Part shown: positions 10,926 through 49,739 of the stretch, in pieces
Position numbering within the stretch: position 1 is the stretch's first letter
How the letters are laid out: every line of letters starts with the position of its first letter
NCBI GenBank assembly: GCA_015039465.1
Contig: MU130302.1
Coordinates: 290,202 to 354,201, forward strand
Direction of reading: 5' to 3'
Source of the DNA: Phlegmacium glaucopus
Taxonomy: Eukaryota > Basidiomycota > Agaricomycetes > Agaricales > Cortinariaceae
Length of the DNA: 64,000 nucleotides
Program-made: the position numbers and the translations under genes
The notes under the pieces: generated by a model
Database searches by the model: none
The model's input: the letters and a program-made list of their open reading frames with translations, nothing else
What the model was told of the DNA's origin: nothing

Positions 10926-13918
10926 TCATGAGTGGGATTGGATTGGGAAGATGGAATTAAACATACAGAGTCGATGTTCAAGAATTGTTTCAGATAGTTT
11001 GGATTTGAATTCACGCAGCTCAGCACTCTGCTTTTGATGAGGCCAATCCCCAAGCTGTTTGAGTGCAACCTCCACCTTGTCCCTCATATCAAATTTTGTG
11101 TAAATTTCAAAAGCCTTGCAAAAGGCATCAATGAAGGAGGCAGATTGAGACTGGTTCCAAAAAGAATTTTCCAGACAAATGAGAAGTGCTATATAATGTA
11201 GAAGATGAAGGAAGGACAATAAGGATGGTATCAAGGCAGAGAGGAAAACAGACAGACCAGCAAACACAGACAGATTATATGTCTGGTCCCAATTGACTTG
11301 TGTACAAGATGGAGACCAGTCAAATGTGGTTTTCATGAATATTGTCACACTTTCTATATTGTTCAACTAGAGAAAGGTAAGACAAGAACAAGGTCAGAGG
11401 GCACTGTCAGCAGTGCAAATTTACAAAGTTTGAGAGGGGCTCACAGCTGGACATATTTTCTGGTCAGTCAACCAAATTTTAAGGCAAGAGGGACTCACTT
11501 CTGGAGATTATTTTCAGGTCAGCCAAATTTTAAGGCAAGAGAGAAGGACTCACATGCAGGACACATTGCAGGTCAAAGCAATTTAGAGAGAGGGACTCAC
11601 GACTGACACATTTCAGGAGCCAAAGGCAAGAGAGAAGGACTTACTTGCTAACACAATTTTGGTCAGTTGCCAATTCAAGAGGAGAGGTACTCACCTACTG
11701 GACACAGATTTAGGAGTCAGCCAAATTTTAAGCAGAGAGGTCACAGAGCAAATTAAGGCAAGAGACAGACATTCTGGATACATTTTCAGGTCAGTCAACC
11801 AAGTTTTAAGGCCAGAGAGACAGACTCACTCCCTAGACACATTTTCAGGTCAGTCAGCCAAATTTTAAGGCAAGAGGGATGGACTCACAAACTGGACATA
11901 TTTTCAGGTCAGTCAGCCAATTTTTTAAGGCAAGAGAGAGATGGACTCACTCCCTGGACACATTTTCAGGTCAGTCAGCCAAATTTTAAGGCAAGAAAGA
12001 GAGACTCACTCGCTGGACATATTATTGAGTCAGTCAGGTAAATTTTAAGGTGGGAGAGAGGGACTCACAAGCTGGACACATTTTCAGGTCAGTCAGATAA
12101 ATTTTAAGGCAAGAGAGATGGACTCACTCCCTGGACACATTTTCACGTTAGTCAGCCAAATTTAAGGCAAGAGAGAGGGACTCACAGACTGGACACATTT
12201 TCATGTCAGTCAGCCAAATTTTAAAGCAAGAGAGAGAGACTCACTCGCTGGACACATTTTACAGTGGCCTCGTCAGTACCTTGATGAGAATGACTTAGGT
12301 GCATCATACCTCCTTCATGTCAAGTTCAGTTTCTGCCTTCAATGTCATAATTGCTTTCTTACTGTTTTCCCCTTGAAACCTTGTTGAATGCCTCTGAATC
12401 TTTGTCATACATTATACAACTTACATACTGTTAAAAGACACTCAGTTAACACCTGCATGTTGATTATCAGCTCACTTACATCCTAAATCACAGATTACTT
12501 CATGTCTTTTGGTAAGTAAAGTTTGGATGTTTCATACATAGTTCTTCTTGTTGTCAACCCATGTTCAACCCTTATTGCACCTGCATTAGCTAATGGAGAA
12601 ATTTATGGAGAGATAGGTCTCTTACCTCAGTCAATCTTGTACTTACCCCAATCTTTCCATGCTATTGTTGAGTATTGGATGTGATGAATGTGTAAACTTC
12701 AACTCATATATGAATGGTAGAACCATACCAAGCAGGCCTTCACCACTTCTTGCTTTTAAAACTTCAGTTCTGAGTAATAAGTTGCTCAGGGATCACAATA
12801 AGACAAACCATTTCAATGGAGCTTCCCAGGTTGGGTGCACTGGCACTGGCATCAACTGACATATTGGAAATTTATGGAAAATACCTACTATCTTATGGCA
12901 TATCTAATACACAGTTCTAGATTATTTTGCTGAAGTGAAACAAACAATATCTTGAGTGCAAGATCATCAAGGGAATCTGCTGTTTTCTCTGTCAGTTCTT
13001 TCACCTGCCTCTGATGATCACCATCATCTTTGTGCATGGCTGTGTATTAATCAAGTCAACAAACAAATACACTCTCTGAAGCATAGGAAACATGCCTTCG
13101 GTGGATACATGTGCTTTTGGAGGATATTTATACTCAAATAGTGGTGCTCGAAACCTGTCCTCCAATAACTTGACTGCCTCTTCGCGACTTCCCTGCATGC
13201 CTAAAGACCTTTTGAAGACCTGAAGTACAAGATCATCAAATTTTGTGAAGATGGCAATCACTGGAGCTAGGTGGTAGTATTGTATTTACATCAGTCAGGT
13301 ACTCAGAAAGATGAAGTCGACAAGTCGATAACGAACCATTTCCTGCTTGTTGCTCGTTAAAAAACCTCCGCTCTAACTCCAGTAGAGGTCGAGATTTATC
13401 TGGTCTAAAACAGAACCTATAACAGCAATAAATAAAAGAACGAAGCTAGATAATGAAACGGACCAAATAGCATGAAGCTGGTCCTTCACATCGGTGGACG
13501 TCGCACGCTTCTCAATGAACGACTGCACTTCCTTCAGTTGATTCTCGTCTCCTGCCTCAAGCCCGGGAGAATCATGGAAGATGAACTGAGGGTTGCTAGA
13601 AAATGCGAATGGGCGGTGGATGTCATGGCACCCGCGCTGGTTAGCAGCGAGGTCAAAAATCTGGCTTCAACCAACCAAGACATGGTGATTACTTACCTCT
13701 AAGGTTGACTCCAACTGATTCGAGTTTTTTAAATCAGGGGTCCATGCACAACTAGACAGGAAACTCACTAAATTGTTGCTCTTTTCGTCGTAAATACAAG
13801 GCTCCTCGGTCGTATTGCAGACCCGCTTCAAGAGTGTTGTCTTGCCAGCATTGGCCCGACCGATCACGAGAATACGAAAACGATTATATTTCTGTCGAAG
13901 TTTGTAGGCGTCGTCCAT
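10926..13918 (-). pseudogene. G-domain (GTPase-like) gene, paralogue 1, array decayed
   Basis: This is the inverted third copy of the G-domain family, reading from ATG at 13918 to TGA at 10926. The N-terminal exons are intact. They carry G1 GRANAGKTTLLKRV, a six-codon exon (LESTLE), RGCHDIHRPF, G3 DSPGLEAGDE and G4 TKFD. The conserved GC-AG intron that begins GAAG|GCATGT is present. A middle coding exon (about 12620-12770) is open and aligns with paralogues 2 and 3. The last exon (10926-11366) is open and encodes a hydrophobic stretch (LSVFAGLSVFLSALIPSLLS) and a helical tail ending MFNSIFPIQSHS. The intron/triplet array between them (11445-12247) has only 15 units. It contains a TAG triplet, three 2-nt gaps, a lost acceptor and a damaged donor. 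I therefore call it a probable pseudogene, although the N-terminal exons alone might still be expressed. Confidence 0.7.
11445..12247 (-). repeat. Intron/triplet array of paralogue 1 (15 units, decayed)
   Basis: These are tandem units of about 55 nt. On the minus strand each reads GTGAGT, pyrimidine tract, CTGAC, AG, then a short gap and the next GTGAGT. In transcription order the gaps are CGA, TCT, GGA, CTT, CGA, GGA, TTT, GGA, AAT (donor changed to GTCTGT), TAG (a stop, at 11695-11697) and CAA (donor GTAAGT). They continue with TC (2 nt), CAT (acceptor changed to CTG), AA (2 nt) and CT (2 nt). The first eight obey the triplet rule. Most of the last seven do not. Confidence 0.85.
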
Positions 13919-14154
13919 GTTGCCGCTAGATGTACGATAGCTGAGAGAGGGCTAGAGTATGGGGTAGTGGGCTTGCAGATCAAAACCACTGACTTCTTGT
14001 TATGTGACGCTTTTAGCTTTGCTCTCTCGGACTAGTACAAGTAGTCTCGAAACCAGAAATTGCGGTGGCCGATTTTCTATTTGGGTATCGGCTTATGGGT
14101 TTTAATAATAGGTCCCGAATCATTGACAGATGGAATACTGCCGAAAGTCAGAAT
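13919..14154. other. 5' flank of paralogue 1
   Basis: The first 90 bases match the 5' flanks of paralogues 2 and 3 (the TGTGACGC / AAGAAGTCAGTG stretch), so the duplicated block includes the promoter. Beyond that nothing is recognised. Confidence 0.5.
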
Positions 14155-18024: not shown

Positions 18025-21000
18025 ATGGCTTTTGTTTTTAAGCGAGGTTAGTGTCGTTTGTACTATGCTCACCGTCGTGTAGCTGACCACTACTTACACT
18101 GAATTAGATGGGTATGTGTGCTTTCAGACGCGTCAGACGCGTAAAACGCGACTATCATGTTACATAATACTAAACATTGACTAAACAGACGCAAGGAACG
18201 CGTTCAATTCGATAAAGTAGGGTTCACACGCAGCTTTGCCTCGTTACGCGACAGATGATTTATTGATATCTTTCTTTTTGGGATTCAGATCACTGCACGA
18301 ATCATGAAACTGTCTTATGGCCTTGATACCAATTATGTCGATCCTGTTGAGTACGTCCGCGCTTGTTGACTATCTTGTTATCACCGTGTTTCTCAAATCT
18401 CTATTTTTGTTACTAGGGTTACTCAAAAAGTCGTTGCTGGTGTATACCAAGGCGTAACAACAGTGGAGCTTGATGTAAGTGAATATATATAACTTGACCC
18501 TACCTTTGTTCTCACTGAGCGACATGATGATCTAGAACTTGGCAGCTGAGACCGCTGCGTACCTCACTACTAAACACCCTGACTATGCGGTCCTCGCTGC
18601 CCGGATTGCCATCTCTAACCTACACAAGGAAACTAAGAAAAACTTTTCTCAAGTTATAAAGGATCTATATGAATACGGCGAGCCTTCTTCTGCAATATTT
18701 GTGATTGTTCGTTTCTCATGTGCGAGATGATGCCCACAGTGAACCCAAAGAACGGTCGTCCTGCTAGTATGATTTCCAAGGAAATATACGAGATAGTCCG
18801 TGATAATGCCGAGGCTTTGGATTCTGCCATCATCTACAATCGTGACTTTAACTACAACTTGTCAGTGTCGATCTTTTTTCTTTGCTAAAGATATGTAAAT
18901 GACATTCGTCCCTTATTGTAGCTTTGGATTCAAAACTCTCGAGCGATCATATTTGCTTCGCCTTAACGGTCGTGTGGTCGAACGTCCACAACATATGATC
19001 ATGCGTGTCGCTGTTGGCATTCATGGTGCTGATCTCGACAAAGTCTTCGAGACTTACAATCTCATGTCTGAACGTTACTTCACTCATGCTTCACCGACTC
19101 TCTTCAATGCTGGAACTCCTCATCCCCAATTGAGTTCTTGTTTCCTCGTTTGTATGAAGGATGATTCTATTGAGGGTATCTATGATACTCTTAAAAACTG
19201 TGCTATGATCAGCAAGACGGCTGGTGGAATCGGGTTAAACATTCATTGCATTCGTTCCACTGGGTAAACGTTTCCTTCTTGTGGAGCTTTTTAAGGTCTA
19301 AATTCATTGTGTTTCTGGTATTACAGATCATACATCGCTGGTACCAATGGTTACTCAAATGGTATTGTACCTATGCTGCGTGCATATGACGCCACTGCAC
19401 GTTACGTCGATCAAGGAGGCAACAAACGTCCTGGAGCGTTCACTATCTACATCGAGACGTGGCATCCTGATATTTTCGAATTCCTCGATCTCAGGAAGAA
19501 TCATGGAAAAGAAGAAGCTCGAGCTCGCGATCTCTTCTACGCTCTTTGGATTTCTGATCTTTTGTACGTTATTACTCTCTTGTGTATTGTTTTTTAATTA
19601 GCTAACTAACAAAATTTGTTAAGCATGAAGAGGGTCGAAGCTAACGGCGAATGGTCTTTGTTCTGCCCTAACGAAGCACCTGGTCTACATGAAGTTCATA
19701 GTGAGGAGTTTGAAGCGTTGTATGAGAAGTATGAAAAGGAAGGTCGTGCGCGTAAGACGATTCCCGCTCAGAAACTCTGGTATGCTATCCTTGAAAGTCA
19801 AATTGAAACCGGCGGTCCTTTCATGCTTTACAAGGATCATGCCAACGGTAAGTTTAAAAGATGGCAAAATTCGACGTTCATAAAGCTCATATACTCTATT
19901 TATGTAGGCAAATCCAACCAAAAGAATCTCGGCACCATCAAATCCTCTAATCTCTGCACTGAGATCATCGAGTACTCGTCTCCTGACGAAACTGCTGTAT
20001 GCAACCTTGCATCACTCGCCCTTCCCTCCTTTATTGTCAATGGACAATATGACTTCCAAAAACTTCACGATGTCACGAAAGTTGTTGCATTCAACCTCAA
20101 TAGGATTATCGATGTAAACTACTATCCCATTCCTGAAGCCCGTCGGTCTAACATGCGCCATCGACCTATCGGTGTTGGAGTCCAAGGCCTCGCTGATACT
20201 TTCATGGCTCTGCGCATGCCCTTTGATTCATCCGCCGCTAAAGAACTCAACATCAAGATCTTCGAGACGATCTACCACGGTGCACTCGAAGCCAGCTCGG
20301 AGATGGCAGAACGCGAAGGTCCTTATGAGACTTGGATGGGAAGCCCGGCGCAGCTTGGTCAACTTCAGTATGATATGTGGGGTGTGACGCCTACGGATCT
20401 TTGGGATTGGGCTTCACTGAAAGAGAAGATCGCACGAACTGGTCTTAGGAATTCTCTTTTGGTCGCTCCTATGCCTACCGCCTCGACTAGTCAGATCCTG
20501 GGCAATAACGAATGTTTTGAACCTTATACCAGGTATGTCCGTTAGTCTATATATCTCGGGTGAGACTAATGGTTGAATTGAAATAGCAACATCTACACTC
20601 GTCGTGTCCTTGCAGGTGAATTCCAAGTCGTCTGCCCCTGGCTCCTCCGTGAGCTCGTCGAGCTTGGTCTTTGGGATGACAATATGAAGAACATGATCAT
20701 CGCTCACAACGGATCTGTTCAAAATATCCCTAATATCCCTGACGATGTCAAAGCTATCTACAAAACCGTATGGGAGATCAGTCAGAAGAAAGTTCTCGAC
20801 CTTGCCGCCGATCGTGGTGCCTTCATATGCCAGAGTCAGAGTTTAAACGTTCATCTGCAGTCGCCTACTCTTGGTCAATTGACGAGTATGCATTTCTATG
20901 GATGGAAGAAGGGATTGAAGACTGGAATGTATTATCTTCGTACTAGGCCTGCTGCGCAAGCTATCCAATTTACCGTCGACCAAAGCTTACTGAAGGAGGC

Positions 21001-21430
21001 GAAGAAACAAAATGCAATGGCTAGTACCGCCCGTGCTGCTACCACCACCTCCCACACCACTCCTTCGAAGCCTACCAATGGCATTCTTACCCCAGCGTCA
21101 TCGCTCACATCCTCTCCTACACGTTCCCCCGTCGTCACCCCTTCTCCAGCTCCATCCGTAGCCGTCAAGCAAGAACCTTTATCACCCACTCCCCTCAAGT
21201 TCCTGCCTTCATCGCCCTCCAGCATGTCGGTATCATCGTCATCCGGGACAGCTGTTGAGACCCCTAACGCTCTTGCTTCTCTTTCGTTAAATGATAAAGC
21301 ACAAAAGGCTGCGGAAGCTGATCCTGAATTCGCTGCGGCCCTTCAACGACAACGCGAACGTGAGCTAGAAGATGAGAAATTGCAGTGTTCATTGGAGAAT
21401 AAGGAAGCGTGCTTGATGTGCTCCGGTTGA
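18025..21430 (+). CDS. RNR1: Ribonucleoside-diphosphate reductase large subunit
   Basis: This enzyme reduces ribonucleoside diphosphates to dNDPs, with the small subunit as radical donor. Twelve exons (18025-18046, 18108-18111, 18189-18216, 18289-18350, 18417-18474, 18536-18677, 18740-18860, 18922-19263, 19327-19563, 19624-19847, 19908-20532, 20587-21430) give 902 residues. The N-terminal ATP cone reads [14 protein letters not shown]. The substrate loop with the first redox cysteine is [19 protein letters not shown]. The catalytic block is [20 protein letters not shown]. The family signature around [16 protein letters not shown] and the C-terminal shuttle pair CLMC are all present. A Ser/Thr/Pro-rich linker of about 100 residues precedes the tail. 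Exon 2 is only 4 nt (ATGG, completing the Asp-Gly codons). The intron after exon 6 is GC-AG (18678-18739). Upstream ACGCGT boxes suggest cell-cycle control. Length and motifs indicate an intact gene. Confidence 0.94.
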
Positions 21431-22635: not shown

Positions 22636-22768
22636 GATGAACCTTTGCTAGGTGGAGGTCGGCGCAAGGTCGGTGCATCAGAGAGAAGCGTCACATGATA
22701 AGAAGTCAGTGATAAGCCCACTGCCCTACTGTAGTCCTCTCTCCAGATATCTTACATCTAGTGGCAAC

Positions 22769-25700
22769 ATGGACGACACCCTCAAACTTCGACAGAAATA
22801 TACTCGTTTTTGTATTCTCGTGATTGGTCGAGCCAATGCTGGCAAGACGACACTCCTGAAGCGGGTCTGCAATACGACCGAGGAGCCTTGTATTTATGAC
22901 GAAAAGAGCAAGAATTTAGTACGTTTCCCAGTGTCTAGTTGTGGATGGATCCCTGATGTGAAAACTGGAATCAGTTGGAGCCAACCTCAAAGGTAAGTAA
23001 TCACCATGTCTTGGTTGATCGAACCCAGATTTTTGACCTTGCTGCTAACCAGCGCGGGTCCCACGATATCCACCGCCCATTCGCATTTGCTAGCAACCCT
23101 CAGTTCATCTTCCATGATTCTCCCGGGTTCGAGGCGGGAGACGAGAATCAGCTGAAGGAAGTACAGTCGTTCATTGAGGAGCGTGCGTGGTCCACCGATG
23201 TGGAGGAGCAGCTTCATGCCATTTGGTCGGTTCCATTATCTGGTTTCATTGTTTTATTTATTGCTGTTATAGGTTCTGTTTTAAACCAGATAAATCTCAA
23301 CCTCTACTGGAGTTAGAGCAGAGGTTTTTCAATGAGCAACGAGCGGGGAATGGTTTGTTGTTGATTGTCGACTTCATCTTTCGGAGTACCTCACTGACCT
23401 AAATACAAATTCTACCCAGCTCCAGTGATTGCAATCTTCACAAAATTTGATGATCTGGTAGTTCAGGTCTTCAAAAGGTCTTTAGGCATGCAGGGAAGTC
23501 GTGAAGAGGCAGTCAAGTTATTGGAGGATAGGTTTCGAGCACCATTGTTCAAGTATAAGTATCCCCCAAAAGCACATGTATGCATTGAAGGCATGTTTCA
23601 TATGCTTCAGAGAGTGTATCTGTTTGTTGACTTGATTGATACACAGGCATGCACAAAGATGATGGTAATCATCAGAAGCAGGTGAAAGAACTGATAGAGA
23701 AAACAGCAGATTCCCTCGATGACCTTGCACTCAAAATATTGTTTGTTTCACTTCAGCAAAATAATCTAGAACTGTCTATCACATATGCCATAAGATAGTA
23801 GGTATTTTCCATAAAGTTCCAATATGTCAGTTGATGCCAGTGTCAGTGCACAAAACATGGGAAGGTCCATTGAAATGGTGTGTCTTATTGTGACCCCTGA
23901 GCAACTTATTACCTAGAACTGAAGCTTTAAAAGGAAGAAGTAGTAAAGGTCTGTTTGGCATGGTTTTACCATTCATATGTGAGTTGAAGTTACATCCATT
24001 GTGTCCAACAATACTCAACAATAGCATAAAAAGGTTTGGGTAAGTACAAGATTGACTGAGGTAAGAAACCTATAACCAACTCTCCATAAAAATTTCATTA
24101 GCTAATGCAGGTGCAATAGTGGTTGAACATGGGTTAACAATAAGAAGAACTATGTATGAAACATCTAGACTTTACTTTCCAGAAGACTAAAGTAATCTGT
24201 TATTTAGGATGTAAGTAAGCCAATAATTGAAATGCAGGAAGGTGTTGACTGAGTGTTTTTTTAACAGTATGTAAGTTGTATAATTTGTGAGAAAGATTCA
24301 GAGGCATTCAACAAGGTTTCCAGGGGAAAACGGTAAGAAAGCAATTATGACATTCAAGGCAGAAACTGAACTTGACATGAAGGAGGTATGAGGCACCTAA
24401 GTCATTTCCATTGAAGTACTGATGAGGCTACTGGACAATGTGTCCAGTATGTGAGTCCCTTTCTCTTGCCTTGAAATTTAGTTGACTGACCTGATAATGT
24501 GTCCAGGATGTGAGTCCCTCTCAGGCTCTCTCTTGCCTTAAAATTTGGCTGACATGAGAATGTGTCCAGGAAGTGAGTCTCCCTTGCCCCAGAATCTGGC
24601 TGACTGACCTGAAAATGTGTCCAGGGAGTGAGTCCCTCTCTCTCTTGCCTCAAAATTGAGACTGACCTGAAAATGTGTCCAGTTTGCAAGTCCCTCTCTC
24701 TTGCCTCTGAATTTGGCTGACTGACCTGAAAATGTATCCAGGGAGTGAGTCCCTCTCTCTTGCCTTAGAATTTGGCTGGCTGACCTTTAAATATGTCCAG
24801 TTTGTGAGTCTCTCCTACTTGCCTTAAAATTAGGTTGACTACCATAAAAATGTGTGCAGGAAGTGAGTCCCTCTCTCTTGCCTCTGAATTTAGCTGACTG
24901 ACCTGAAAATGTGTCCAGGAAGTGAGTCCCTCTCTCTTGCCTTAAAATTCAGCTGACTGACCTGAAAATGTGTCCAGGAAGTGAGTCCCTCTTACTTGCC
25001 TTAAAATTTGGTTGACTACCCTGAAAATGTGTCCAGAATGTGAGTCCCTCTCTCTTGCCTTGAAATTTGGTTGACTGACCTGAAAATATGTCCAGCTTGT
25101 GAGTTCTTCTCTCTTGCCTTAAAAAATTTGGCTGACTGACCTGAAAATATGTCCAGCAAGTGAGTCCCTCTCTTGTCTCTGAATTTGGCTGACTGACCTG
25201 AAAATATGTTCAGCTTGTGAGCCCCTCTCTCTTACCTTAAATTTGGCTGACTGACCTGAAAATGTGTCCAGGTTGTGAGTCCCTCCCCCTTGCCTTAAAA
25301 TTAGCCTGACTGACATGAAAAATGTCCAGTCTGTGAGTCTCTTCTTTGCCTTAAAATTTACCTGACTGATATGAAAATATGTCCAGTATGCAAGTCCCTC
25401 TCTCTTGCCTTAAAATTCAGCTGACTGACCTGAAAATGTGTCCAGTTTGCAAGTCCCTCTATCTTGCCTTAAAATTTGACTGACTGACCTGAAAATGTGT
25501 CCAGGTTGTGAGTCCCTCTCTCTTGTCTCCAGAATTTGGCCAACTAACCTGAAAATGTGTCCAGGATGTGAGTCCCTCTCTCATGCCTTAAAATTTGGTT
25601 GATTGACCTGAAAATGTGTGCAGGAAGTGAGTCCCTCTCTCTTGCCTTAAAATTTGGCTGACTGACCTAAAAATGTGTCCAGTCTGTGAGGTCCCTCTCT

Positions 25701-27933
25701 CTTGCTTTAAAATTTAGCTGACTGACCTGAAATTATGTGCAGCGAGTGAGTCCCTCTCCCTTGCCTTAAAATTTGGCTGACTGGCCTGAAAATGTGTCCA
25801 GGGAGTAAGTCCCTCCCTCTTGCATTAAAATTTAGCTGACTGACCTGAAAATGTGTCCAGGAAGTGAGTCCCTCTCTCTTACCTCTGAATTTGGCTGACT
25901 GACCTGAAAATGTGTCCAGTCTGTGAGTGCCTCTCTCTTGCTTTAAAATCTAGCTGACTGACCTGAAAATGTGTCCAGGAGGTGAGTCCCTCTCTCTTGC
26001 CTTAGAATTTAGCTGACTGACCTGAAAATGTGTCTAGCAAGTGAGTACCTCTCTCTTGCCTTAGAATTTGGCTGACTGACCCAAAAATGTGTCCAGTTTG
26101 TGAGTTCCTCTCTCTTACCTTAAATTTGGCTGACTGACCTGAAAATGTGTCCAGGTTGTGAGTCCCTCTCTCTTGGCTTAAATTTATCTCACTGACCTGA
26201 AAATGTGTCCAGGAAGTGAGTCCTTCTCTTGCCTTAGAATTTAGCTGACTGACCTGAAAATGTTTCCAGAAAGTGAGTCCCTCTCTCTTGCCTTGAAATT
26301 TAGCTGACTGACCCAAAAATGTGTCCAGCTGGTGAGTCCCTCTCTCTTGCATTAAAAAATTTCTGACCTGAAATGTGTCCAGCTTGTAAGTCCTTTTTCT
26401 CTTGCCTTAAAATTGGCTGATTGACCTGAAAATGTGTCTAGGAAGTCAGTCCCTCTCTCTTGCCTTACAATTTAGCTAACTTACTTGAAAATGTGACCAG
26501 AAAGTGAGTCCTTCTCTCTTGCCTTAAAATTTGGCTGACTGGCCTGAAAATGTGTCCAGCTTGTGAGTCTTGCCTCCAGAGTTTGGCTGACTGACCTGAA
26601 AATGTGACCAGCAAGTGAGTCCCTCTCTCTTACCTCAAAATTTAGCTGACTGACCTCAAAATATGTCCAGGATGTGAGTCCCTCTCTCTTGCCTTAAATT
26701 TGGCTGATTGACCTGAAAATGTGTCCAGGAAGTGAGTCCCTCTCTCATGCCACATAATTTGGCTGACTGACCTGAAAATGTGTCCAGGAAGTGAGTTCCT
26801 CTATCTTGCCTTAAATTTGGCTGACTGACCTTAAAATATGTCCAGCAAGTGAGTTCCTCTCTCTTGCCTCAAATTTAGCTCACTGACCTGAAAATGTCCA
26901 GGAAGTGAGTCCCTCTCTCTTGCCTTAAAACTTAGCTGGCTGACCTGATAATATGTGTAGGATGTGAGTCCCTCTCTCTTGCCTTATAATTTAGCTGGCT
27001 GACCTGAAAAATGTGTCTAGGTTGTGAGTCCTTCTCTCTTACCTTCAAATTTGGCTCACTAACATGAAAATGTATCCAGTTTGTGAGTCCCTCACTCTTG
27101 CCTTAACATTTAGCTTACTGACCTGAAAATGTGTCCAGCAAGTGAGTCCCTCTCTCTTGCTTTAAAATTTGGCTGACCTGAAAATGTGTCCAGAAAGTGA
27201 GTCCCTCTCACTTGCCTTAAAATTTGGTTGACTGATTTGAAAATGTGTGCAGCTTGTGAGTCCCTCTCTCTTGCCTTAAAATTTGGCTGACCTGAAAATG
27301 TGTTCAGGAAGTGAGTCCCTCTTGCTTTCAAATTTGGCTGACTGACCTGAAAATGTGTCTAGGTTGTGAGTCCCTCTCCCTTGCAATAAACCTTGGTTGA
27401 TTGACCTAAAAATGTGTCCAGTTTGTGAGTCTCTCTCTAACTTCTCTGTAAGGTTGCACTGCTGACAATGCCTTCTGAACTTGTTCTTGTCTTACCTTTC
27501 CCCTAGTTGGAAAACATAGAAAGAGTGACAATATTAATGAAAACCACATTTGACTGCTCTAAGTCTCCATATTGTACTTGGTACCAGACATATCCTTTGT
27601 CTGTGTTTGCTGGTCTGTCTGTTTTTCCTCCCTGCCTTGACACCATCCTTATTGTCCTTCCTTTATCTTCTACATTATATAGCAATTCTCATTTGTCTGG
27701 AAAATTCCTTTTGGAACCAGTCTCAATCTGCCTCCTTCATTGATGCCTTTTGCAAGGCTTTTGAACTTTACACAAAAATTGGTATAAGGGAGAAGGTGGA
27801 GGTTGCACTTAAAGGGCTTGGGGATTGGCCTAGTAACGAGGATTGGCATGGACTACTTGAATTTCAAGCCAAACTAACTGAAACAATTTTCAACCATCGA
27901 CTGCATATGTTTAATTCTATCTTCTCAAACTAA
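22769..27933 (+). CDS. G-domain (GTPase-like) gene, paralogue 2, 52-unit exon array
   Basis: The N-terminal G domain is clear. G1 is GRANAGKTTLLKRV, G3 is FIFHDSPGFEAGDE and G4 is TKFD. The domain then runs through SREEAVKLLEDRFRAPLF and KELIEKTADSLDDLALKILF. Supported exons are 22769-22918, 22975-22992 (18 nt), 23053-23225, 23273-23352, 23420-23590, then a GC-AG intron, 23647-23797, 23841-23864 and 23917-24039. Conserved 3- and 9-nt exons follow (24102-24390), then the array of 52 three-base exons (24448-27424) and a last exon from 27507. The triplets read in phase 0 give an acidic helical segment that runs straight into LENIERVTI. The last exon is hydrophobic in its first half (possible membrane anchor) and ends MFNSIFSN. 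Cautions: the frame between 24039 and the first 9-nt exon is unresolved. One extra T in a T-run near 27630, relative to the paralogues, shifts the last exon. The family is common in agaricomycetes and its function is unknown. Confidence 0.65.
24040..24447 (+). other. Conserved 3- and 9-nt candidate exons before the array
   Basis: Between the last ordinary exon and the array, short blocks flanked by AG and GT are kept in all three paralogues. They are CTAATGCAG (9 nt, before GTGCAA), AAGAACTAT (before GTATGA), GAT (ATTTAG|GAT|GTAAGT), TAT (AACAG|TAT|GTAAGT), GGGAAAACG (CCAG before, GTAAGA after) and GAG (GAAG|GAG|GTATGA). Differences among paralogues leave lengths divisible by three (for example CTGATGGAG in paralogue 3, GGGAAAATG). 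The intervening sequences are 50-60 nt with plausible branch points, except the GTGCAA one, which is about 35 nt. These are inferred exons, not proven. Confidence 0.5.
24448..27424 (+). repeat. Array of 52 single-codon exons and ~55-nt introns
   Basis: Each unit reads donor GTGAGT (also GTAAGT, GCAAGT, GTGAGC, GTGAGG or GTCAGT), CCTCTCTCTTGCC, an AAATTTGG core, CTGACTGAC (branch point), TGAAAATGTGTC and CAG or TAG. Exactly three bases follow before the next donor. All 52 gaps are 3 nt, although the intron part ranges from about 47 to 65 nt through indels. The triplets are GAA, GAT, TTT, GTT, CTT, CAA, GGA, TCT, AAA, TAT, AAT, CGA, GAG and CTG, with no stop codon. In order, units 29-47 spell FVEKLLEKLQDEEQEDVFQ. 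A pure minisatellite would not protect AG-NNN-GT while its remaining positions drift. Confidence 0.8.
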
Positions 27934-29018: not shown

Positions 29019-32000
29019 TTAAAAGACAATTTCGTGAGCATGATGATCAACAAAATGATTGACATAATAACCAGAAAATGCATCTAGAGAATCTTTATAA
29101 TCAAAGTTTATAGGGAGAAAGGCAGTCCCAAATGTAGGAAGCAAGTGAGCTCCACGCAGAAGACTATCAAGGTGAATGACTGTACAAAAGCGTTTCCCAT
29201 TCCGAATGTCAGGGCGAACCCTCCACATGCCGGTCACTGGGTCACAACTACGCCCATAGGTGTTAAACCACTCAACAAGGACACATGGATAATAATGACC
29301 TGCATGGTAGAAAGAAAAGAATAAATGAATACGAACGATGCTCATCCCTTTCATTCCTGGTTTATCCTCATCCTCGATCACGAAGGCTGTGTCCCGCCGA
29401 GGTCCTTTCTTCCTCCACATTGGGCAGGACCGTATCCATTCTCGACATATGCCCCGAATACCAGATTCGTCACCAGGGGAGAAATATGAAGCGACAGCAG
29501 AGTGGAATACAGAGATGGATGAGGTAATTTCGGGACATAGGTGGAGAGGGATATTGTCGGAAGTCACATCTTTGTTGTTGTTGAGCTGATCAAAAAGGAA
29601 ACGCCTTGTGAGCTCAGGAAGTGAGGGACAACTGATGTGGCGTGCCAGAGCGTCTAGAGCGGATGGATAAGACCGTACTGATAATAATCATAAACAGATG
29701 TCATAGAGATGATGAACTAAATTACTCACCTGGCGTTCGAGCTAAAACAACATTACCCATCACCATCTCGACATGTCGACTCTTAGGGTGATTATTATTG
29801 AGATTATCTTCATTGTCTGAGTCCACGTCCAAGTCTGGATTGTCCGCTGTCTGCCTAGCCGGTTTGGTGAGAGGTAAGTACGATGGCATCAACATTCCGC
29901 GTCGAACATAGTCAACACGCAAAGCTGCCAACTTGTCTAAACGCTGATTCGTGAGAAGCATTTGTCCCAAAGCCTGGTATCGACTTGAACGGCGCCAAGG
30001 CTTTTTGACAGCTGTGATGTGACGTGATTCAGTAATCGAGGAGCAAATCCCTCCGGGAGCACCAAATTCCTCGATGTTGAAGTGATAATGGGAAAGAGAA
30101 TGTTGCCGAGGAAGTGAAAAACCTGTGGGACGAACTCCCACGTTTCGAAAGACTTCTTGATGAGCATAAAACTTTTCCAGAGCAGCATTGAATTGTCGGA
30201 GCGTTGTCTCAGTAATATCCGCACGGCGAACAAGATAACAGACATCGAGGAATGATGAAATAGCCTGGACCATTTCTGAAGGAACATGTCCTGCAATAGC
30301 GGAAATATACACCTGAAACATGTTCAATTTATTTCGAATTTTGACACTCATCTACGGCATACATACCTTCATAAGAGCTTTGGAATCATCGCCTGTCCAC
30401 TGTTTAAAACGACGTCCATGTGGAAAGTGGTGAAGATTAGGAAAAAGAGGGGCGGCTGCAATTCTTAAATCGAAAGTTTGAATTAAATTTTGATTAAATA
30501 AATCACGGACTAAATAATAAAAACCTTCGATTGATGTCATCCATAATCTCATTGGCTCGAGCATCACCATGTTCAAGGGATAAATACTCTCCAACCCACG
30601 TAACAAGGTGATCTTTAAACGTCCCTTTAATAAGTTGATGTAGAAGATCCGGTGTGAGCATCTCATAAATATCGGCTCGAGGAAAATCATGTGTGAATGG
30701 CTGAAAAACAGTAAGCTATTTAAAAGAGAGCGTATGCCAATGGAAACAACAAAAATTTACCAGAATATCGTCATCAATTCCATATTCATCCCAGAGCAAC
30801 TTAGAATCCAAAATTTCAATCAATTCGTCGGTAAATGCTCGAGTTCTTCTCCCTCGCTTTCCATCTAGATCATTGGGTAAAGCCGTACATCTAACAATAC
30901 CATCAATCAATTCCAATTAGGGTAAATACGGTAATACATACTTTGGACACCATCCTTGAACTATTCCGGCTAAAGCCACCTGCTCAGGATAATCGGCTAT
31001 GAAGGCGGCAAGATCGAAGATGACACGTCTGTAGTGGCCATCGGGACAACGAAGAATTACCGGCTCGGTCATTCCTTTGCGGAGCGTCTTCAAAATCGCA
31101 GAGATAGATGCATGGTAAATTTGACATTTGAATTTACGGAACGAAGCATCATTGTCGTACTTTCGATCACCTTAATACACAATGTCAATAATAATTTTGA
31201 TTTTAGGATAACGAAATAATTCACTTTTTGGAATAGCAAGGAATGCAATAGGTGATACAGCATTGCGGTGTGCATGTCGAACTGTGTTGTGAACGCCTCC
31301 AGGCGACATATATAAAGGATGGTATTCGACGTGGCCAGTAGCTACGGAAACAGTTGTTTTATCAGCCCCAAGAATAATCGGGCAGTACATTGAGTCTTTC
31401 GTTGAATTGTCATTCTCGTAAATTTCTGTCTGAAGGGAAGTTAGAATAAAATTATATTCAGCATAATGGTTCAACGCACGGCTTTCCTCCAAGAATAATT
31501 AGCGGACATAAATTCATTCCAACGTCGCTCGCCTGTTTCACTGTCTACCTCGATGAACGGCGCATAGCTGTAATGCCCATTAAAGTCGGAATTATCCAAC
31601 ATATTCCCAATTACAACAAGTGGGTCGCGATACCATACTTCGTATTCATCAAGCATCCAACTGGGCGAGTTTTCGTTTAATTCTCCACCATATGAAACCA
31701 TGAAGGATTTCCAAGGAGCATTGCCATCATTGATAGAGTCGATAGTGGAGTACATGTGCTGGTACGAAGAAAATGGTCCAAGATCGTCATGTTTGGCCAT
31801 AGAAAGGGCCCATATATCCATGAGAATATCAATATTGCCAGCTGACATCTCCTCCTTGCGAAAGAGAAAGTCAGCAACGCAAAATTGAGACTCATCGTCA
31901 AATGGGGTCCAATCATCTGGTGTGGGGTCGTCTCGAGGCATTGGAGGAGTGCCTGGGTCTAGGAAGTTACCCATTGCGTCGCATGGAAGTCCTAATAGTT

Positions 32001-32344
32001 TAAAAACATAGAATAAATATATATAATTTGATGAGGATAAGAAACATAGCCATACCGGTGAGATAAGGATGATAATTGCGTTGTCGATCATGATTTAGGG
32101 ACGGTTCTCGTGTTGAAGGTGCCTCAGGTGGAGTATTGGGTGCGTTTTGTGGTTCGGGAGACCAAGAATTAGTGCGTGGGTTGTCGTCATATACAGGTGC
32201 AGAGTCAGAATCTTCGGGTTCCACGATGTTGTGATTGGTATGAAAAGTTCGAACATGCTTGGTTCGCCCGTTTTGATTTTTGAATCGTCGAGAGCAGCCT
32301 TGAGCTCGGAAGGGACATGTAAGAGAGAATAATCGGCCTTTCAT
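29019..32344 (-). CDS. Plavaka-family transposase
   Basis: This multi-exon gene reads from MKGRLFSLTCPFRAQGCSRR (start at 32344, a C2H2-like N-terminal finger CPFRAQGCSRRFKNQNGRTKHVRTFH) to VDHHAHEIVF (stop at 29019). The order of conserved blocks matches Plavaka transposases. LPCDAMGNFLDPGTPP comes first, then DFLFRKEEMS and WYRDPLVVIGNML. The catalytic-core block GADKTTVSVATGHVEYHPLY follows, with AHRNAVSPIAFLAIPK. Next come CPDGHYRRVIFDLAAFIADYPEQ, CTALPNDLD, the HDFPRADIYEMLTPDLLHQLIKG region, and late blocks FNIEEFGAPGG and SRHITAVKKPWRRSS. Introns are short GT-AG, for example right after HPYLTG at about 32050. I saw no internal stop that is not explained by an intron, but I did not verify every junction. 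It acts in the nucleus to cut and insert the element. Confidence 0.8.
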
Positions 32345-32571
32345 TCGTGATATACAGATTAGATACAAGTGGAAAGGGGTATACAAGTGGAAAGGGGTAC
32401 ATACCGGTGGAAAGGGGTAGATGCGGGTGCAAAGGGGTACAACGGACTTGGTGATTCAGATGTCCTGGAAACAGCGGCTAATCGGTAAGCCGGTAAAATG
32501 GAAAAAAAAAAACATACGATAACATTTCCATTCTCTGCATTACCTTTCAGACATCCGCCTTGCAAAGAACT

Positions 32572-38427: not shown

Positions 38428-38937
38428 AATAATACTGTCGAGTGTTGCCTCATTTCTTTTTTTTTTTGGATCGCTTCCACTAGATGGACTCTGTTGTATA
38501 ACAATGTTCTCCAGATTTTTTTTAGCTACTCAGATACCCCAATCTTGTCTTTTTTTTGTCTCCAGGCTTCTTCGGAAGTTCCTATAATTGTTTACTACTG
38601 TTTTTTGTTTCTTTCTTGCCATGGTTATCGGTTATTATTAAGCCTGTACTTACAATCACTATCATGCAAGCAATACTATGCAATTTTTTTCACTTTGGGT
38701 TCACAGAGTGATAGAGTCCCTATAAAAAAGTGTCTTCGGTTCAGATTGTCTACCAATTCCATGACCGTGTAAAGCTATGCTCCAAACGCAAAAGCGAATC
38801 AACAGATGAACCTTTGCTAGGTGGAGCTCGGCGCAAGGTCGGCGCATCAGAGAGAAGCGTCACATGATAAGAAGTCAGTGATAAGCCCACTGCCCTACTG
38901 TAGTCCTCTCTCCAGATATCTTACATCTAGCGGCAAC

Positions 38938-41900
38938 ATGGACGACGCCCTCAAACTTCGACAGAAATATACTCGTCTTCGTATTCTCGTGATCGGTCGA
39001 GCCAATGCTGGCAAGACGACACTCTTGAAGCGGGTCTGCAATACGACTGAGGAGCCTTGTATTTACGACGAAAAGAGCAACAATTTGGTGCGTTTCCTGT
39101 CCACTAGTTGCGGATGGATCGCTGACTTAACGAACTCGAATCAGTTGGAGCCAACCTCAGAGGTAAGTAATCACCATGCCTTGGTTGATCGAACCCAGAT
39201 TTTTGACTTTGCTGTTAACCAGCGCGGGTGCGACAATATCCACCGCCCATTCGCGTTTTCTAGCAACCCTCAGTTCATCTTCCATGATTCTCCCGGGTTT
39301 GAGTCAGGAGACGAGAATCAACTGAAGGAAGTACAGTCGTTCATTGAGATGCGTGCGAGGTCCACCGACGTGGAGGACCAGCTTCATGCCATCTGGTCAG
39401 TTCATTATCTGGATTCGTTCTTTTATTTATTGCTGTTATAGGTTCTGTTTTAAACCAGATAAATCTCGACCTCTACTGGAGTTAGAGCAGAGGTTTTTCA
39501 ACGAGCAACGAGCAGGAAATGGTTTGTTGTCGATTGTCGACTTCATCTTTCGGAGTACCTCACTGACCTAAATACAATACCACCCAGCTCCAGTGATTGC
39601 AATCTTCACAAAATTTGATGATCTGGTAGTTCAGGTCTTCAAAAGGTCTTTAGGCATGCAGGGAAGTCGTGCAGAGGCAGTCAAATTATTGGAGGACAAG
39701 TTTCGAGCACCACTATTCAAGTATAAGTATCCACCAAAAGCATACATATACATGGAAGGCATGTGTCCAATGCTTCAGAGAGTATCTGTTTGTTGACTTG
39801 ATTGATACACAGACATGCACAAAGATGACAGTGATCATCAGATGCAGGTGAAAGAACTGATAGAGAAAACAGCAGATTCCCTCGATGATCTTGTACTCAA
39901 GATATTGTTTATTTCACTTCAGCAAAATAATTTAGAACTGTGTATCAGATATGCCATAAGATAGTAGGTATTTTCCATAAATTTTCAATATGTCAGTTGA
40001 TGCCTAGTGTCAGTGCACAAAACCTGGGAAGGTCCATTGAAATGGTTTGTCTTATTGTGATCCCTGAGCAACTTATTACCCAGAACTGAAGCTTTAAAAG
40101 GAAAATGTAGTGCAGACCTGCTTGGCATGGTTCTACCATTCATATGTGAGTTGAAATGATATTCATTGTGTCCAGTACTCATCAATGGTATAAAAAGGTT
40201 GGGGTGAGTACAAGATTGACAGAGGTAAGAGACCTATCTCTCCATAAATTTTTCCATTAGCTGATGGAGGTGCAATAGTGTTTGAACATGAGCTGACAAT
40301 AAGAAGAACTATGTATGAAACATCCAGACTTTACTTTCCAGAAGACCTGAAGTAATCTGTTATTTAGGATGTGAGTAAGCCAATAATTGACATGCAGGAA
40401 GATGTTGACTGAGTGTTTTTTAACAGTATGTAAGTTGTATAAATTATGACAAAGATTCAGAGGCATTCAACAAGGTTTCCAGGGGAAAATGGTAAGAAAT
40501 CAATTATGGCATTGAAAGCAGAAACTAAACTTGACATGAAGGAGGTATGATGCACCTATGTCATTCCCATTGGAGTACTGATGAGGCCACTGGACAATGT
40601 GTCCAGTTTGTGAGTCCCTCTCTCTTTCCTTATTTAGCTGACTGACCTGAAAATGTGTCCAGGATGTGAGTCCCTCTCTCTTGCCTTGAAAATTGGCTGA
40701 CTGACCTGAAAATGTGTCCAGGAAGTGAGTCCCTCTCTCTTGCCTCAAAATTCAGCTGACTGGCCTAAAAATGTGTCCAGCAAGTGAGTCCCTCTCTCTT
40801 GCCTTGAAAATTTGGTTGACTACCCTGAAAATGTGTCCAGGATGTGAGTCCCTCTCTCTTGCTTTAAAATTTAGCTGACTGACCTGAAAATGTGTTCAGG
40901 TTGTGAGTTCTTCCCTCTTGCCTTGAAATTTAGCTGACTGACCTGAAAATGTGTCCAGAATGTGAGACCCTCTCCTGCCTCTAAATTTGGATAACTGACC
41001 TGAAAATGTGTCCAGGAAGTGAGTCTCTCTTGCCTTAAATTTAGCTGACTGACCTGAAAATCTGTCTAGGTTGTGAGTCCCTCACCCTTGCCTTAAAATT
41101 TGGCTGACTGACATGAAAATATATCCAGTCTGTGAGTCCCTTTCCCTTGCCTTGAAATCTGCCTGACTGACATGAAATATGTCCAGTATGCAAGTTCCTC
41201 TCTCTTGCCTTAAAATTTCACTGACTGACCTGAAAATGTGTCCAGTTTGTGAGTCCCTCTCTCCTGGCTTAAAATTTGACTGACTGACCTAAAATGTGTC
41301 CAGCTTGTGAGTCCCTATCTCTTGCCTTAGAATTTAGCTGACTGACCTGAAATGTGTTCAGTTTGTGAGTCCCTCTCTCTTGCCTTAGAATTTGGCTGAC
41401 TGACCTGAAAATGTGTCCAGGATGTGAGTCCCTCTCTCTTGCCTTGAAAATTGGCTGACTGGCCTGAAAATGTGTCCAGGAAGTGAGTCTCTCTTGCCTT
41501 AAATTTAGCTGACTGACCTGAAAATGTGTCCAGGAAGTGAGTCCCTCTCTCTTGTCTTAAATTTTGGCTGACTGCCTGAAAATGTGTCCAGGGAGTGAGT
41601 CCCTCTCTCTTCCCTTGAAATTTAGCTGACTGTGAAAATGTGTTGAGTTTGTATGTCCCTTTCTCTTGCCTTAGAATTTAGCTGACTGACCTGAAAATGT
41701 GTCCAGTTTGTGAGTCCCTCTCTCTTGCCTTAAAATTTAGCTGACTGACCTGAAACTGTGTCCAGGTTGTGAGTCTCTCTCTTGCTTTAAAGTTTAGCTG
41801 AGTGACCTGAAAATGTGTCCAGGATGTGAGTCTCTCTCTCTTGCCTTGAAAATTGGCTGGCTGACCTGAAAATGTGTCCAGGAAGTGAGTCTCTCTTGCC

Positions 41901-42708
41901 TTAAATTTAGCTGACTGACCTGAAAATGTGTCCAGGAAGTGAGTCCCTCTCTCTTTGCCTTAAAATTTGGCTGACTGACCTGAAAATGTGTCCAGGAAGT
42001 GAGTCTCTCTTGCCTTAAATTTAGCTGACTGACCTGAAAATGTGTCCAGGATGTGAGTCCCTCTCTCTTTCCTTAAAATTTGGCTGACTGACCTGAAAAT
42101 GTGTCCAGGATGTGAGTCACTCTCTTGCCTGCAACCTCCTTGACAAACCTGAAGCATGTATCCAGGAAGTGAGTCCCTCTGTCTTGTTGCAAATTCAGTT
42201 TGCCAAAAATGCATCCAGTTTGTGAGTCCTTCTCCCACCATTATGTAATATTGCACTGCTGACAATGCCATCTGAACTACCCTTTCCCTAGTTGAAAAAT
42301 ACAGAAGCAGTGATAACATTCATGAAGACTATATTTGCATCCTGGGACCAGACATATTCTCCTTCTGTGTTTGCTGGTCTGTCTGTTCTCCTCCCTGCCT
42401 TGTTACCATCCTTATTGTCCTTCCTTCATATTCTACATTATATAGCACTTCTAATTTGTCTGGAAAATTCCTTTTGGAATCAGTCTCAATCTGCCTCCTC
42501 CTTCATTGATGGCTTTCGCAAGGCTTTTGAAATTTACACAAAGACTGGTATAAGGGAGAGGGTGGAGGTTGCACTTAAAGGGCTTGGGGATTGGCCTAGT
42601 GAAGAGCATGATACTGAACTGCATGGATTCAGATCCAAACTAACTGAAATAATTCTTGACTATCGACTACGTATGTTTAATTCTATCTTCTCAAACCAAT
42701 CCTGCTAA
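38938..42708 (+). CDS. G-domain (GTPase-like) gene, paralogue 3, 29-unit exon array
   Basis: The organisation is the same as paralogue 2. Exons are 38938-39087 (G1 GRANAGKTTLLKRV), 39145-39162, 39223-39395 (G3 FIFHDSPGFESGDE), 39442-39521, 39588-39758 (G4 TKFD), a GC-AG intron and 39813-39963. The array (40607-42221) and the last exon from 42292 follow. In this copy the last exon is a single open frame (VITFMKTIF, PSVFAGLSVLLPALLPSLLS, LICLENSFWNQSQSAS, MFNSIFSNQSC). The 29 triplets in phase 0 are open and acidic. One in-frame TGA falls in the middle coding exon (about 40156), after the block GMVLPFICELK shared with the other paralogues. The gene may therefore be truncated, or spliced differently there. 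The N-terminal G domain is intact. Function is unknown, and a regulatory GTPase-like role is only inferred from the motifs. Confidence 0.6.
40607..42221 (+). repeat. Array of 29 single-codon exons and ~55-nt introns
   Basis: The architecture is that of the 52-unit array. All 29 gaps between acceptor AG and donor are exactly 3 nt, with intron lengths from about 46 to 57. Donors are GTGAGT except GTGAGA (unit 7), GCAAGT (unit 11) and GTATGT (unit 19). Acceptors all end in AG (CAG, TAG, one GAG). The triplets in order are TTT GAT GAA CAA GAT, then GTT AAT GAA GTT TCT TAT TTT, and so on to GAA TTT, with no stop codon. Units 9-12 (GTT TCT TAT TTT) match units 15-18 of paralogue 2. The TAT unit carries the same unusual GCAAGT donor in both, so these units are homologous. 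Confidence 0.8.
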
Positions 42709-43379
42709 TGATTGTTGGTCATTTCAAGCACATCCCAACAACCTCAGACCCTCAAACTGATCATTGCCAGTGATGCCATATTGGAAATTATTGTCATCAC
42801 ACCCCAGCCAATTTTATTCTATTTTGTGTCTATATGCTGTTCTTTGTGTTACAACTTGGAATGATCAAATACCAAACTACATGATTTATCACTTTTACAC
42901 TACAAAGTCAAAGCCTCACTGTACAACCAATGGTATTGAAAATATCAAGTGTGTTGTAAGCAATAAGGGATGTGTTATTGATATGCCTATGGAGTAAAAA
43001 TAATTATGATTCAAGTACTATGGCAGTGGTCAATGCAGGATTTGAGTCGTAACATGGTGTTTCCTTGTATTTCAGACAAGTAAGACAGGTGATATTTCCA
43101 TTGCCTGGAGCCTCCAACTATCGTCCCCACTATTCAGCCTCCTTTGTGAACCAAACTTTAATCCAGTTTGACCTTGAGAGATCTTTCTCCTCCTCTCAGA
43201 AGCATGGCCAGTTGGCATGGACCTCCTGGTGGTTACTCACAAAGGCATAACTTGTAGTGTTGATGTTGAATTCATCTCTGGTATCAACAAAGGCTACAGA
43301 TGCCTGCATTGGGAGTTGCACTGACAAACACTCTATTCCGCTTCCATTAGGTGCCAATGCTTTTCTCGGGTTTACTTTA
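42709..43379. other. Duplicated 3' flank of paralogue 3
   Basis: It aligns with 27934-28640. The similarity ends at about 43370, just before a short inverted-repeat element and the remains of a Gypsy retrotransposon. No gene is assigned. Confidence 0.45.
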
Positions 43380-43887
43380 CCCTCCCCCATATAATCCATA
43401 TGGAATCCATAAAATAGAGGGTGGATTCCATGGAATAGGGGGTGGAATCCATGAAATAGGGATGGATTCCATACTCATTCCATGGAATATGAGGATGGAT
43501 TCCACCTTTATTCCATGGAATGTACACATGGATTCCATACTCATTCCATGGAATATAAGGATGGATTCCATGTTCATTCCATGGAATATAAGAATGGACT
43601 CCATACCCATTCCATGGAATTTAAGGGTGGACTCCATACCTATTCCAGGGAATAAACAGATGGATTCCATACTAATTCCATGGAATATAGGCCTATTCCA
43701 CACTCATTCTATATAGAATCCATATACAATCCATATAGAATAGGTGTGGAATAGGTGTGGAATCCATCTATATATTCCATGGAATGGGTGTGGAATGGGT
43801 ATGGAGTCCATCCACATATTCCATGGAATGATAAAATGGCTGGGGACTCAGCCAAAAGTCATTCCATATGGATTATATGGGGGAGTG
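43380..43887. mobile_element. CCCCCA-ended TA element A (word GGAATCCAT)
   Basis: The left end is CCCTCCCCCATATAATCC. The right end as reverse complement is CACTCCCCCATATAATCC. TA flanks both sides (43378-43379, 43888-43889), and rejoining gives CTTTAAGG. The interior is a roughly 39-bp tandem repeat built from the palindromic words ATTCCATGGAAT and ATGGATTCCAT, which also occur next to the ends. There is no real coding capacity. Open frames on both strands are by-products of the repeat. Confidence 0.8.
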
Positions 43888-45588: not shown

Positions 45589-46075
45589 CAGTCCCCCACA
45601 TTGTCTGGCTGGACTCCGCTGGACTTTTGGCAGTCCAGCGGACTCCAGTAAAATTCTGGTAAAAGTCCGGTCAGAGTCCGGTCAGAGTCCAGTCAGAGTC
45701 CGGTGAAAGTAGAAAAATGCCTGGACTGTATGTCTGGTCACAGTCCGGTGGACTTCCACCGGACATCTGCCGGACTTTTGATGGAATTTAGGGTTATATT
45801 TAGATTTAGAGGTTAGGCTTAGGGTTATATTTAGATTTAGGGCTTAGGCTTAGGGCTTAGGATTAATATTTAGGGATGGGGATATTTTCTGTCTGCGCAG
45901 TAGCACATTCTTAGGTTAGGAGGGGATACAGGCATGTTTTGTACTTCCACTGGACTTCCGCCGGACTTCCACCGGACTCTGACTGGACTCTGACCGGACT
46001 GTTCTGGAGTCTGCCGGACTTCTGCTGGACTCTGGTCAGTCCGGCGGAATTCCGGCCGGACAATGTGGGGGAGTG
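45589..46075. mobile_element. CCCCCA-ended TA element B (word CCGGACT)
   Basis: The ends are CAGTCCCCCACATTGTC and, reverse complemented, CACTCCCCCACATTGTC, with TA on both sides (45587-45588, 46076-46077). The interior near both ends is made of CCGGACT / AGTCCGG words. The centre has TTAGGGTTATATTTAGATT repeats (45790-45860). Removing the element and one TA restores TTTAAA and the Gypsy frame (KCVYF then KVLKNVDRT). Confidence 0.88.
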
Positions 46076-48510: not shown

Positions 48511-48711
48511 TTCAAAATGAACAGAGGACTTTTTGAACTGACAGTTATATTCTTTGGAATGTGCAATTCCCCAGCAACTACCAAGCAATGATGGACTCTA
48601 TCTTTGAAGACATGATAGAAGGAGACCTTGTCATTGTTTACATGGACAACATCCTTATTTTTGCAAAGAATGAAAGGACACTTGAAGAAATCACAAAGAA
48701 AGTTCTATTTA

Positions 48712-49664: not shown

Positions 49665-49739
49665 TAAAGTACAGCAATGTCTATGGGAAAATGACCTCTA
49701 CCTGAAACCAAATAAATGTGAATTTAACAGTGTATTTTA

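Follow-up and report, generated by a model that had tools for sequence, protein, structure and literature searches.

Arrays of predicted one-codon exons in a family of P-loop GTPase genes of Phlegmacium glaucopus

Results

Gene and array in the window

The stretch analysed here (the window) comprises 64,000 nucleotides (nt) of the basidiomycete Phlegmacium glaucopus (Agaricales, Cortinariaceae; assembly GCA_015039465.1, contig MU130302.1, positions 290,202 to 354,201) and carries on its plus strand a P-loop GTPase gene, W_main, whose middle part is occupied at 24448..27424 by an array of 52 predicted one-codon exons with introns of about 56 nt, as found by reading the sequence, by Tandem Repeats Finder (TRF), by a motif scan and by cyclic-profile alignment. 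The first array triplet is TAT (24448-24450) and the last is TTT (27422-27424), each triplet has an AG acceptor on its 5' side and a GTGAGT-like donor on its 3' side, and TRF reports a period-59 tandem array at 24437-27438. When the gene was scanned stringently for YAG followed, after 1-8 nt, by a GTRAGY-like donor, 52 sites emerged, every one with a gap of 3; the GAT and TAT exons upstream account for two of these and array triplets for the other 50. The donors of two array units, GTGAGG and GTCAGT, fall outside the motif. Alignment to a cyclic profile of one 59-nt unit (56-nt intron plus NNN) recovered all 52 triplets and, in addition, the GAG that lies upstream. As the NNN columns of this array are free of indels, the introns of W_main differ in length and its triplets never do. 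Joined, the 52 triplets read YDEGFGFEEENLQLVSYFVDESRGESEQFVEKLLEKLQDEEQEDVFQKLEVF, none of them being a stop. The sequence-only reading that had drawn attention to the locus, namely 52 tandem 3-nt exons whose spacing stays at 3 nt despite intron indels, was thus confirmed by sequence, scan and alignment, as were the peptide it gave for units 29-47, FVEKLLEKLQDEEQEDVFQ, and the phase 0 in which the joined triplets meet LENIERV at 27507.

The longer exons around the array were placed by tblastn with the exons of the plus-strand paralogue in the window. On the plus strand, the first coding exon (22769..22918) encodes the P-loop of the G domain (MDDTLKLRQKYTRFCILVIGRANAGKTTLLKRVCNTTEEPCIYDEKSKNL) and is followed by G-domain exons with ordinary introns at 23053-23226, 23274-23351, 23422-23592 and 23649-23795, which are 86-96% identical to those of the paralogue; in the joined exons of the latter (at about 38938) Pfam MMR_HSR1 scores 29 bits against a cut-off of 21.9. 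Next come the exons VSAQNMGRSIEM (23842-23877) and EEVVKVCLAWFYHSY (23934-23978), also found by tblastn, where homologues have WFRHSY, a probable 9-nt exon CATAAAAAG (HKK; 24025..24033), suggested by the length of homologues and by the sequence at this site and with uncertain boundaries, and a probable 6-nt exon AACTAT (NY; 24148..24153), which stands as AAG-AACTAT-GTATGA in seven copies and as TTCTAT in another. Homologous proteins have ...YDYGKTE... at the upstream border of the array, and comparison with them places the residues directly before the array on tiny exons: the one-codon exons GAT (D, 24208..24210) and TAT (Y, 24268..24270), both with ordinary flanking introns, the 9-nt exon GGGAAAACG (GKT, 24324..24332), these three also placed by comparison with paralogues, and the one-codon exon GAG (E, 24383..24385), seen as AAG-GAN-GTATGA with GAG, GAA or GAT in eight copies. 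The GAT and TAT exons were found in 11 of 12 copies with upstream sequence, the twelfth, C91, being interrupted by unrelated sequence, and across eight paralogues aligned here the six columns they occupy show no variation, in a zone with 56% invariant columns overall.

Downstream, the sequence has a final, longer intron (27425..27506; donor GTGAGT, acceptor CTAG), an exon beginning LENIERVTILMKTTFD and ending LSVFA (27507..27612; tblastn), where homologues have QVAKFM...LTVFAA, a predicted 70-nt intron (27613..27682) and a final exon, AILICLENSFW...FNSIFSN (27683..27933; sequence and tblastn), with the stop TAA. Removal of the 70-nt intron would join VFA to AILICLENSFW as in homologues (FAALVICLENSFW). 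W_main as a frameshifted pseudogene was dropped because this removal gives the VFAA-LICLENSFW join of the homologues, the 1-nt insertion in question falling within the intron. The C-terminal half of the host protein matched no Pfam family.

Paralogous arrays in the genome

Searching the genome (60.5 Mb, 259 contigs, that of the window being labelled C106) revealed array-bearing paralogues on C82 (four), C106 (three, all within the window), C134, C181 and C207, and remnants or diverged copies of the array on C91, C124 and C87. Among the matches listed (100 of 131 pattern hits, against 4 for a control pattern, and 116 DNA matches), the repeat is confined to these eight contigs, always in stretches that hold the GTPase family, and a phage search with the array gave no match, as expected. 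The counts below refer to nine core copies (W_main, W_plus2, C82a-d, C134, C181 and C207), which are paralogous P-loop GTPase genes with the array at one common position; W_main and W_plus2 lie within the window. Not counted are W_minus, which is decayed, C91, which is short, and the diverged C124, C87a and C87b. W_plus2, identified by motif scan and alignment in the paralogue starting at about 38938, has 29 one-codon exons at 40607..42221 on the plus strand. The third array of the window, W_minus (11433..12260, minus strand), is decayed according to the alignment, with a TAG triplet and 2-nt gaps near its 3' end. The longest array has at least 71 one-codon exons and an N gap inside. The three paralogues of the window lie inside 32 kb (11433-14000, minus; 22650-27933 and 38850-42760, plus). 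A diverged subfamily of arrays was seen at C124:44841-47993 and C87:95043-98195. Its introns depart from the main type by a common set of 14 majority differences, and GAT makes up most of the codons in C124.

Spacing, stop codons and codon use

Of the 351 junctions in the nine copies, 350 measure exactly 3 nt, whereas for 3-column windows placed inside the intron the number of units with an indel ranges from 2 to 50 of 347; this is the comparison of triplet and remaining unit that the sequence-only reading had proposed as a check, and it came out in favour of preserved spacing. Intron length is 45-65 nt, with one intron of 79 and a mode of 56 (206 of 347 units), and the splice-site columns are the best-conserved columns of the intron. 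The decayed W_minus serves as a natural control, with 3 nt kept in just 11 of 15 junctions and one TAG. The five arrays outside the core have 44 clean triplets in all, and this TAG is the only stop in them. A TAA noted in C207 is not a unit, having no donor after it.

None of the 341 clean triplets of the nine copies, one of which is the upstream GAG exon, is a stop. Shuffling first bases within arrays gave a mean of 22.3 stops and a minimum of 8 in 20,000 shuffles, and counting distinct triplets only, per array, 5.9 stops would be expected (P(0)=0.00045). The coding frame of the joined triplets is open and another frame contains stops in most arrays (10 in W_main, 8 in C181), the third frame owing its lack of stops solely to the strong preference for A or T as third base (A 188, T 146, G 7, C 0; 334/341). 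Across arrays almost one codon per amino acid is used; splice-site context or a single origin of each unit type are candidate causes of this codon and third-base bias. Diversity within arrays is 0.65/0.67/0.50 at the three triplet positions and 0.126 on average, 0.289 at most, in intron columns. The triplets are therefore, as had been proposed, the variable part of the unit at 4-5 times the mean intron-column diversity. The consensus intron, if retained, would introduce an in-frame TAA.

These counts bear on an alternative in which the array is an untranslated minisatellite within one large intron (24386-27506) and its triplets are unconstrained. Introns commonly hold tandem repeats, the head-to-tail units of about 59 bp resemble intronic minisatellites, and gene predictors skip the region or end before it (P0001, P0002, P0005). 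Against this, the triplets keep their length, include no stop, end almost always in A or T and are far more diverse than the flanking intron, the one-codon D and Y exons adjoin the array, and putative transcripts of homologues carry such segments (see below), all of which makes this alternative very improbable.

Uncoupled evolution of codons and introns

Within arrays, 27 pairs of units have identical 56-nt introns, and they share the codon in 5 cases and differ in 22, codon sharing across all within-array pairs being 13.9%. Likewise, units with at most two differences over 112 flanking columns have codons that differ as much as those of random pairs. Gradual divergence after tandem duplication, which the earlier interpretation of the repeat had implied, is hence ruled out as the whole story, since near-identical introns carry codons like those of random pairs and variation in a codon does not follow that of its introns. 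Linkage between codons and flanking intron columns is weak (mean z 0.6 upstream, 0.2 downstream), and none was seen between variants separated by more than 4 nt.

Nor are the codons simply hypermutable, because they are unchanged after a true segmental duplication: in the one clear internal duplication, which spans six units in C82c, codons are kept in 6/6 and introns differ at 9/333 positions. This block was picked by its codons, and an intron-only alignment pairs it too. W_main and W_plus2 have a common block by intron variants (score 37.1 against 16.9 as the highest of 20 shuffles) in which the codon is identical in 3 of 9 aligned units, a codon-only match that is not significant (P=0.15). 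Codon alignments among the other arrays are mostly at chance level, and between C82b and C82d, 5.6% divergent in the pre-array zone, no units were recognised as orthologous.

The majority base is identical at all 56 intron columns in seven arrays on different contigs, C82a and C82c have one change in common in this majority, and W_plus2 has one at plurality. Mean within-array intron divergence ranges from 0.039 (C82a) to 0.192 (C181), with a codon difference of 0.53-0.68 throughout. Either homogenisation has acted on the introns and passed over the codons, or one intron was copied into the gaps between codons that were different beforehand.

The second option corresponds to an introner-like burst, in which one master intron would have been copied between all codons of a pre-existing exon, at different times in each gene. 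Introner elements are dispersed among unrelated genes and similarly put near-identical introns at many positions, and the 56-nt majority common to seven arrays, the absence of linkage between distant variants, the different codons flanked by identical introns and the fivefold range of intron depth at steady codon diversity would fit such a burst. Conversely, the copies among the matches listed lie at codon spacing in this one GTPase family and not in unrelated genes, some blocks were duplicated as introns and codons together (C82c), and no known mechanism would place an insertion at each codon boundary while leaving every codon itself intact. For this last reason homogenisation that spares the codons appears preferable, and we regard the burst as rather unlikely.

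Homologues in other fungi and predicted fold

Protein searches found homologues in many Agaricomycetes, and the family spans at least several lineages of this class. Where several Phlegmacium introns lie, homologues on contigs of 935-1853 nt continue without interruption, and on account of this lack of introns we read these short contigs as spliced transcripts of other fungi. Thirteen proteins with a readable segment were used, the remainder being truncated, lacking the segment or reading into introns; the segment ends were set by eye, and the letter set EGQFRVLD of the composition test was chosen after the data had been seen. All thirteen have a hypervariable segment of 11-49 residues that follows KTE and extends to the QVAKFM-like sequence with which the last exons begin, for example EGGLGGGRLGGRLGHLRLGLGGRGGGLGHLRL in P0021 and QGGGRGFFQEGEGGLFLGEVEEFEVKEFCIQEGQQFFEEQEEQGEGVQF in P0130. 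The pooled composition of these segments (370 residues) correlates with that of the arrays at 0.80 and with that of the rest of the same proteins at 0.30, and taken singly, 9 of the 13 are closer to the arrays in composition than to the rest of the protein. In P0123, P0129 and P0130 the flanks are almost the same and the segments have nothing in common, as is the case among the Phlegmacium paralogues. A word GGRRRFVG is common to the C82c array and the contig protein P0128, but its length was equalled in 4 of 500 shuffles, and it is given no weight here.

The length of these segments is also relevant to the possibility that the one-codon exons are optional, each mRNA carrying a different subset of triplets and one gene yielding many versions of the segment. 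With near-identical splice sites and exons all of 3 nt, nothing marks which donor pairs with which acceptor, skipping would keep the frame, and the segments of the homologous transcripts are mostly shorter than the longer arrays (47-71 triplets). Such shorter segments may instead reflect shorter arrays in other species, and optional exons seem to us a minor prospect.

A model of the homologue P0004 reached a predicted local distance difference test score (pLDDT) of 79 and a predicted template-modelling score (pTM) of 0.60. Apart from the N-terminus, this model is least certain immediately ahead of the segment and over its first residues, and a long helix is predicted next. Foldseek with the model gave Irga6 as best match (E 6e-6) at a template-modelling score (TM-score) of only 0.36, which does not place the protein in the immunity-related GTPase (IRG) fold, and immunity-related and dynamin-like GTPases were in general matched at this low score, so the fold matches are hardly informative outside the G domain. 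Our guess for the host protein would be a GTPase of membrane-remodelling or immunity-like function whose segment is tunable.

Further features of the window

The large subunit of ribonucleotide reductase (Pfam Ribonuc_red_lgC) is encoded at 19610-21430 on the plus strand. Sequence around 38500, before the third GTPase paralogue, repeats the stretch after this gene around 21600 and therefore points to a segmental duplication. Broken-looking open reading frames at 29019-32455 (minus strand) belong to a Plavaka-type transposon (Pfam PF18759 in 31471-32094), and dense short tandem repeats with periods of 10-12, 16, 20-22, 33 and 44, unrelated to the array, fill 43401-43830 and 45664-49863.

Discussion

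AG-NNN-GT units at 3-nt spacing, an open frame, a common position in paralogues and a like-composed segment in intronless homologues characterise the arrays at the sequence level. The explanation that accounts for these features best, and that we consider very probable, is that dozens of consecutive codons of these P-loop GTPase genes are isolated between near-identical introns of about 56 nt and are likely spliced into a hypervariable segment. The one-codon-exon interpretation put forward at the outset thus draws support from the absence of stops, the 3-nt spacing, the like paralogues, the upstream D and Y exons and the fungal homologues. In the window gene, more than 60 introns would be removed from the pre-mRNA, every unit contributing one in-frame codon, and the transcript would read DYGKTE, then YDEGFGFEEENLQLVSYF..., then LENIERV, with the joined codons forming the segment that links the G-domain half to the helical C-terminal half. 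Selection on the protein would exclude stops and maintain the diversity of the codons.

Several observations weigh against this explanation. When each of the 28 triplet types is counted once over all arrays, the absence of stops is not significant (P=0.19); the stop test varies with the counting scheme, and its strength therefore hinges on the independence of the units. Of eight arrays, only C82d shows significant helix periodicity in its joined codons (P=0.001), and the pooled test is not significant (P=0.12). The public gene models P0001 and P0002 end upstream of the array. The identity of the short contigs as transcripts is deduced from their lack of introns, and the related short contigs P0131, P0133 and P0136 seem to read into introns. 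Four of the 13 segments (P0122, P0004, P0014 and P0126) are further from the arrays in composition than from the remainder of their protein, and an unsupervised scan of seven proteins placed the best-fitting stretch at the array position in four, significantly in three. Furthermore, runs of N occur in C82d and two further stretches, C207 has a stop in its last exon and C82b lacks most of one G-domain exon, though the arrays of both are clean. Together, these caveats (N runs, damaged copies, four misfit segments and a helix signal in one array) leave a strong prediction and not a proof.

With respect to the origin of the pattern, the introns would be homogenised and the codons spared, either by short-tract gene conversion combined with selection on the codons or by conversion templated by excised intron RNA, and whole units would be exchanged unequally, so that codons are gained or lost and the frame is never broken. 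We tentatively propose that excised introns (or short conversion tracts) overwrite sister introns across paralogues on several contigs and that single codons could be gained, lost or swapped without frameshift or harm to splicing, resulting in an evolvable recognition segment; this account is plausible and somewhat short of even odds.

No gene with arrays of one-codon exons was found in the open-licence literature searched. Bicycle genes of aphids reportedly likewise combine many short exons with variable proteins. Micro-exon genes (MEG) of Schistosoma are reported to have 10-20 short exons per gene of 6-81 bp (3-81 in the abstract), mostly multiples of three, that encode variable proteins and are separated by long introns unlike one another (PMC10526429). 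The Phlegmacium genes resemble them in having many consecutive exons below about 50 nt in multiples of three, here of 3 nt in 52/52 exons of W_main and in all but one of the junctions counted, and differ in that dozens of successive exons are one codon each and the introns are copies of one another. A 1-nt exon in CYP621A of Fusarium indicates that spliceosomes, including that of a fungus, can use exons of 1-3 nt (PMC12940212). Such ultra-short exons, among them the 3-nt microexons of animals and plants, are known singly, in genes of otherwise usual structure, whereas the predicted 3-nt exons of Phlegmacium come in arrays. With other fungal P-loop GTPases (MMR_HSR1) the host genes have the G domain in common, the array segment and exon layout being undescribed in the literature found.

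In practical terms, gene predictors overlook the array, and as the public models P0001 and P0002 stop before its start, half of the protein is missing from databases. If transcripts confirm the prediction, these would be the most finely divided genes described, with at least 71 successive codons each having its own intron. The finding would then bear on how the spliceosome pairs sites where there is no room for exon definition, on the number of successive introns that can be accurately removed, and on intron evolution, the introns being concerted and the intervening codons not, and it would give this GTPase family a hypervariable protein segment that changes length by single residues without frameshift.

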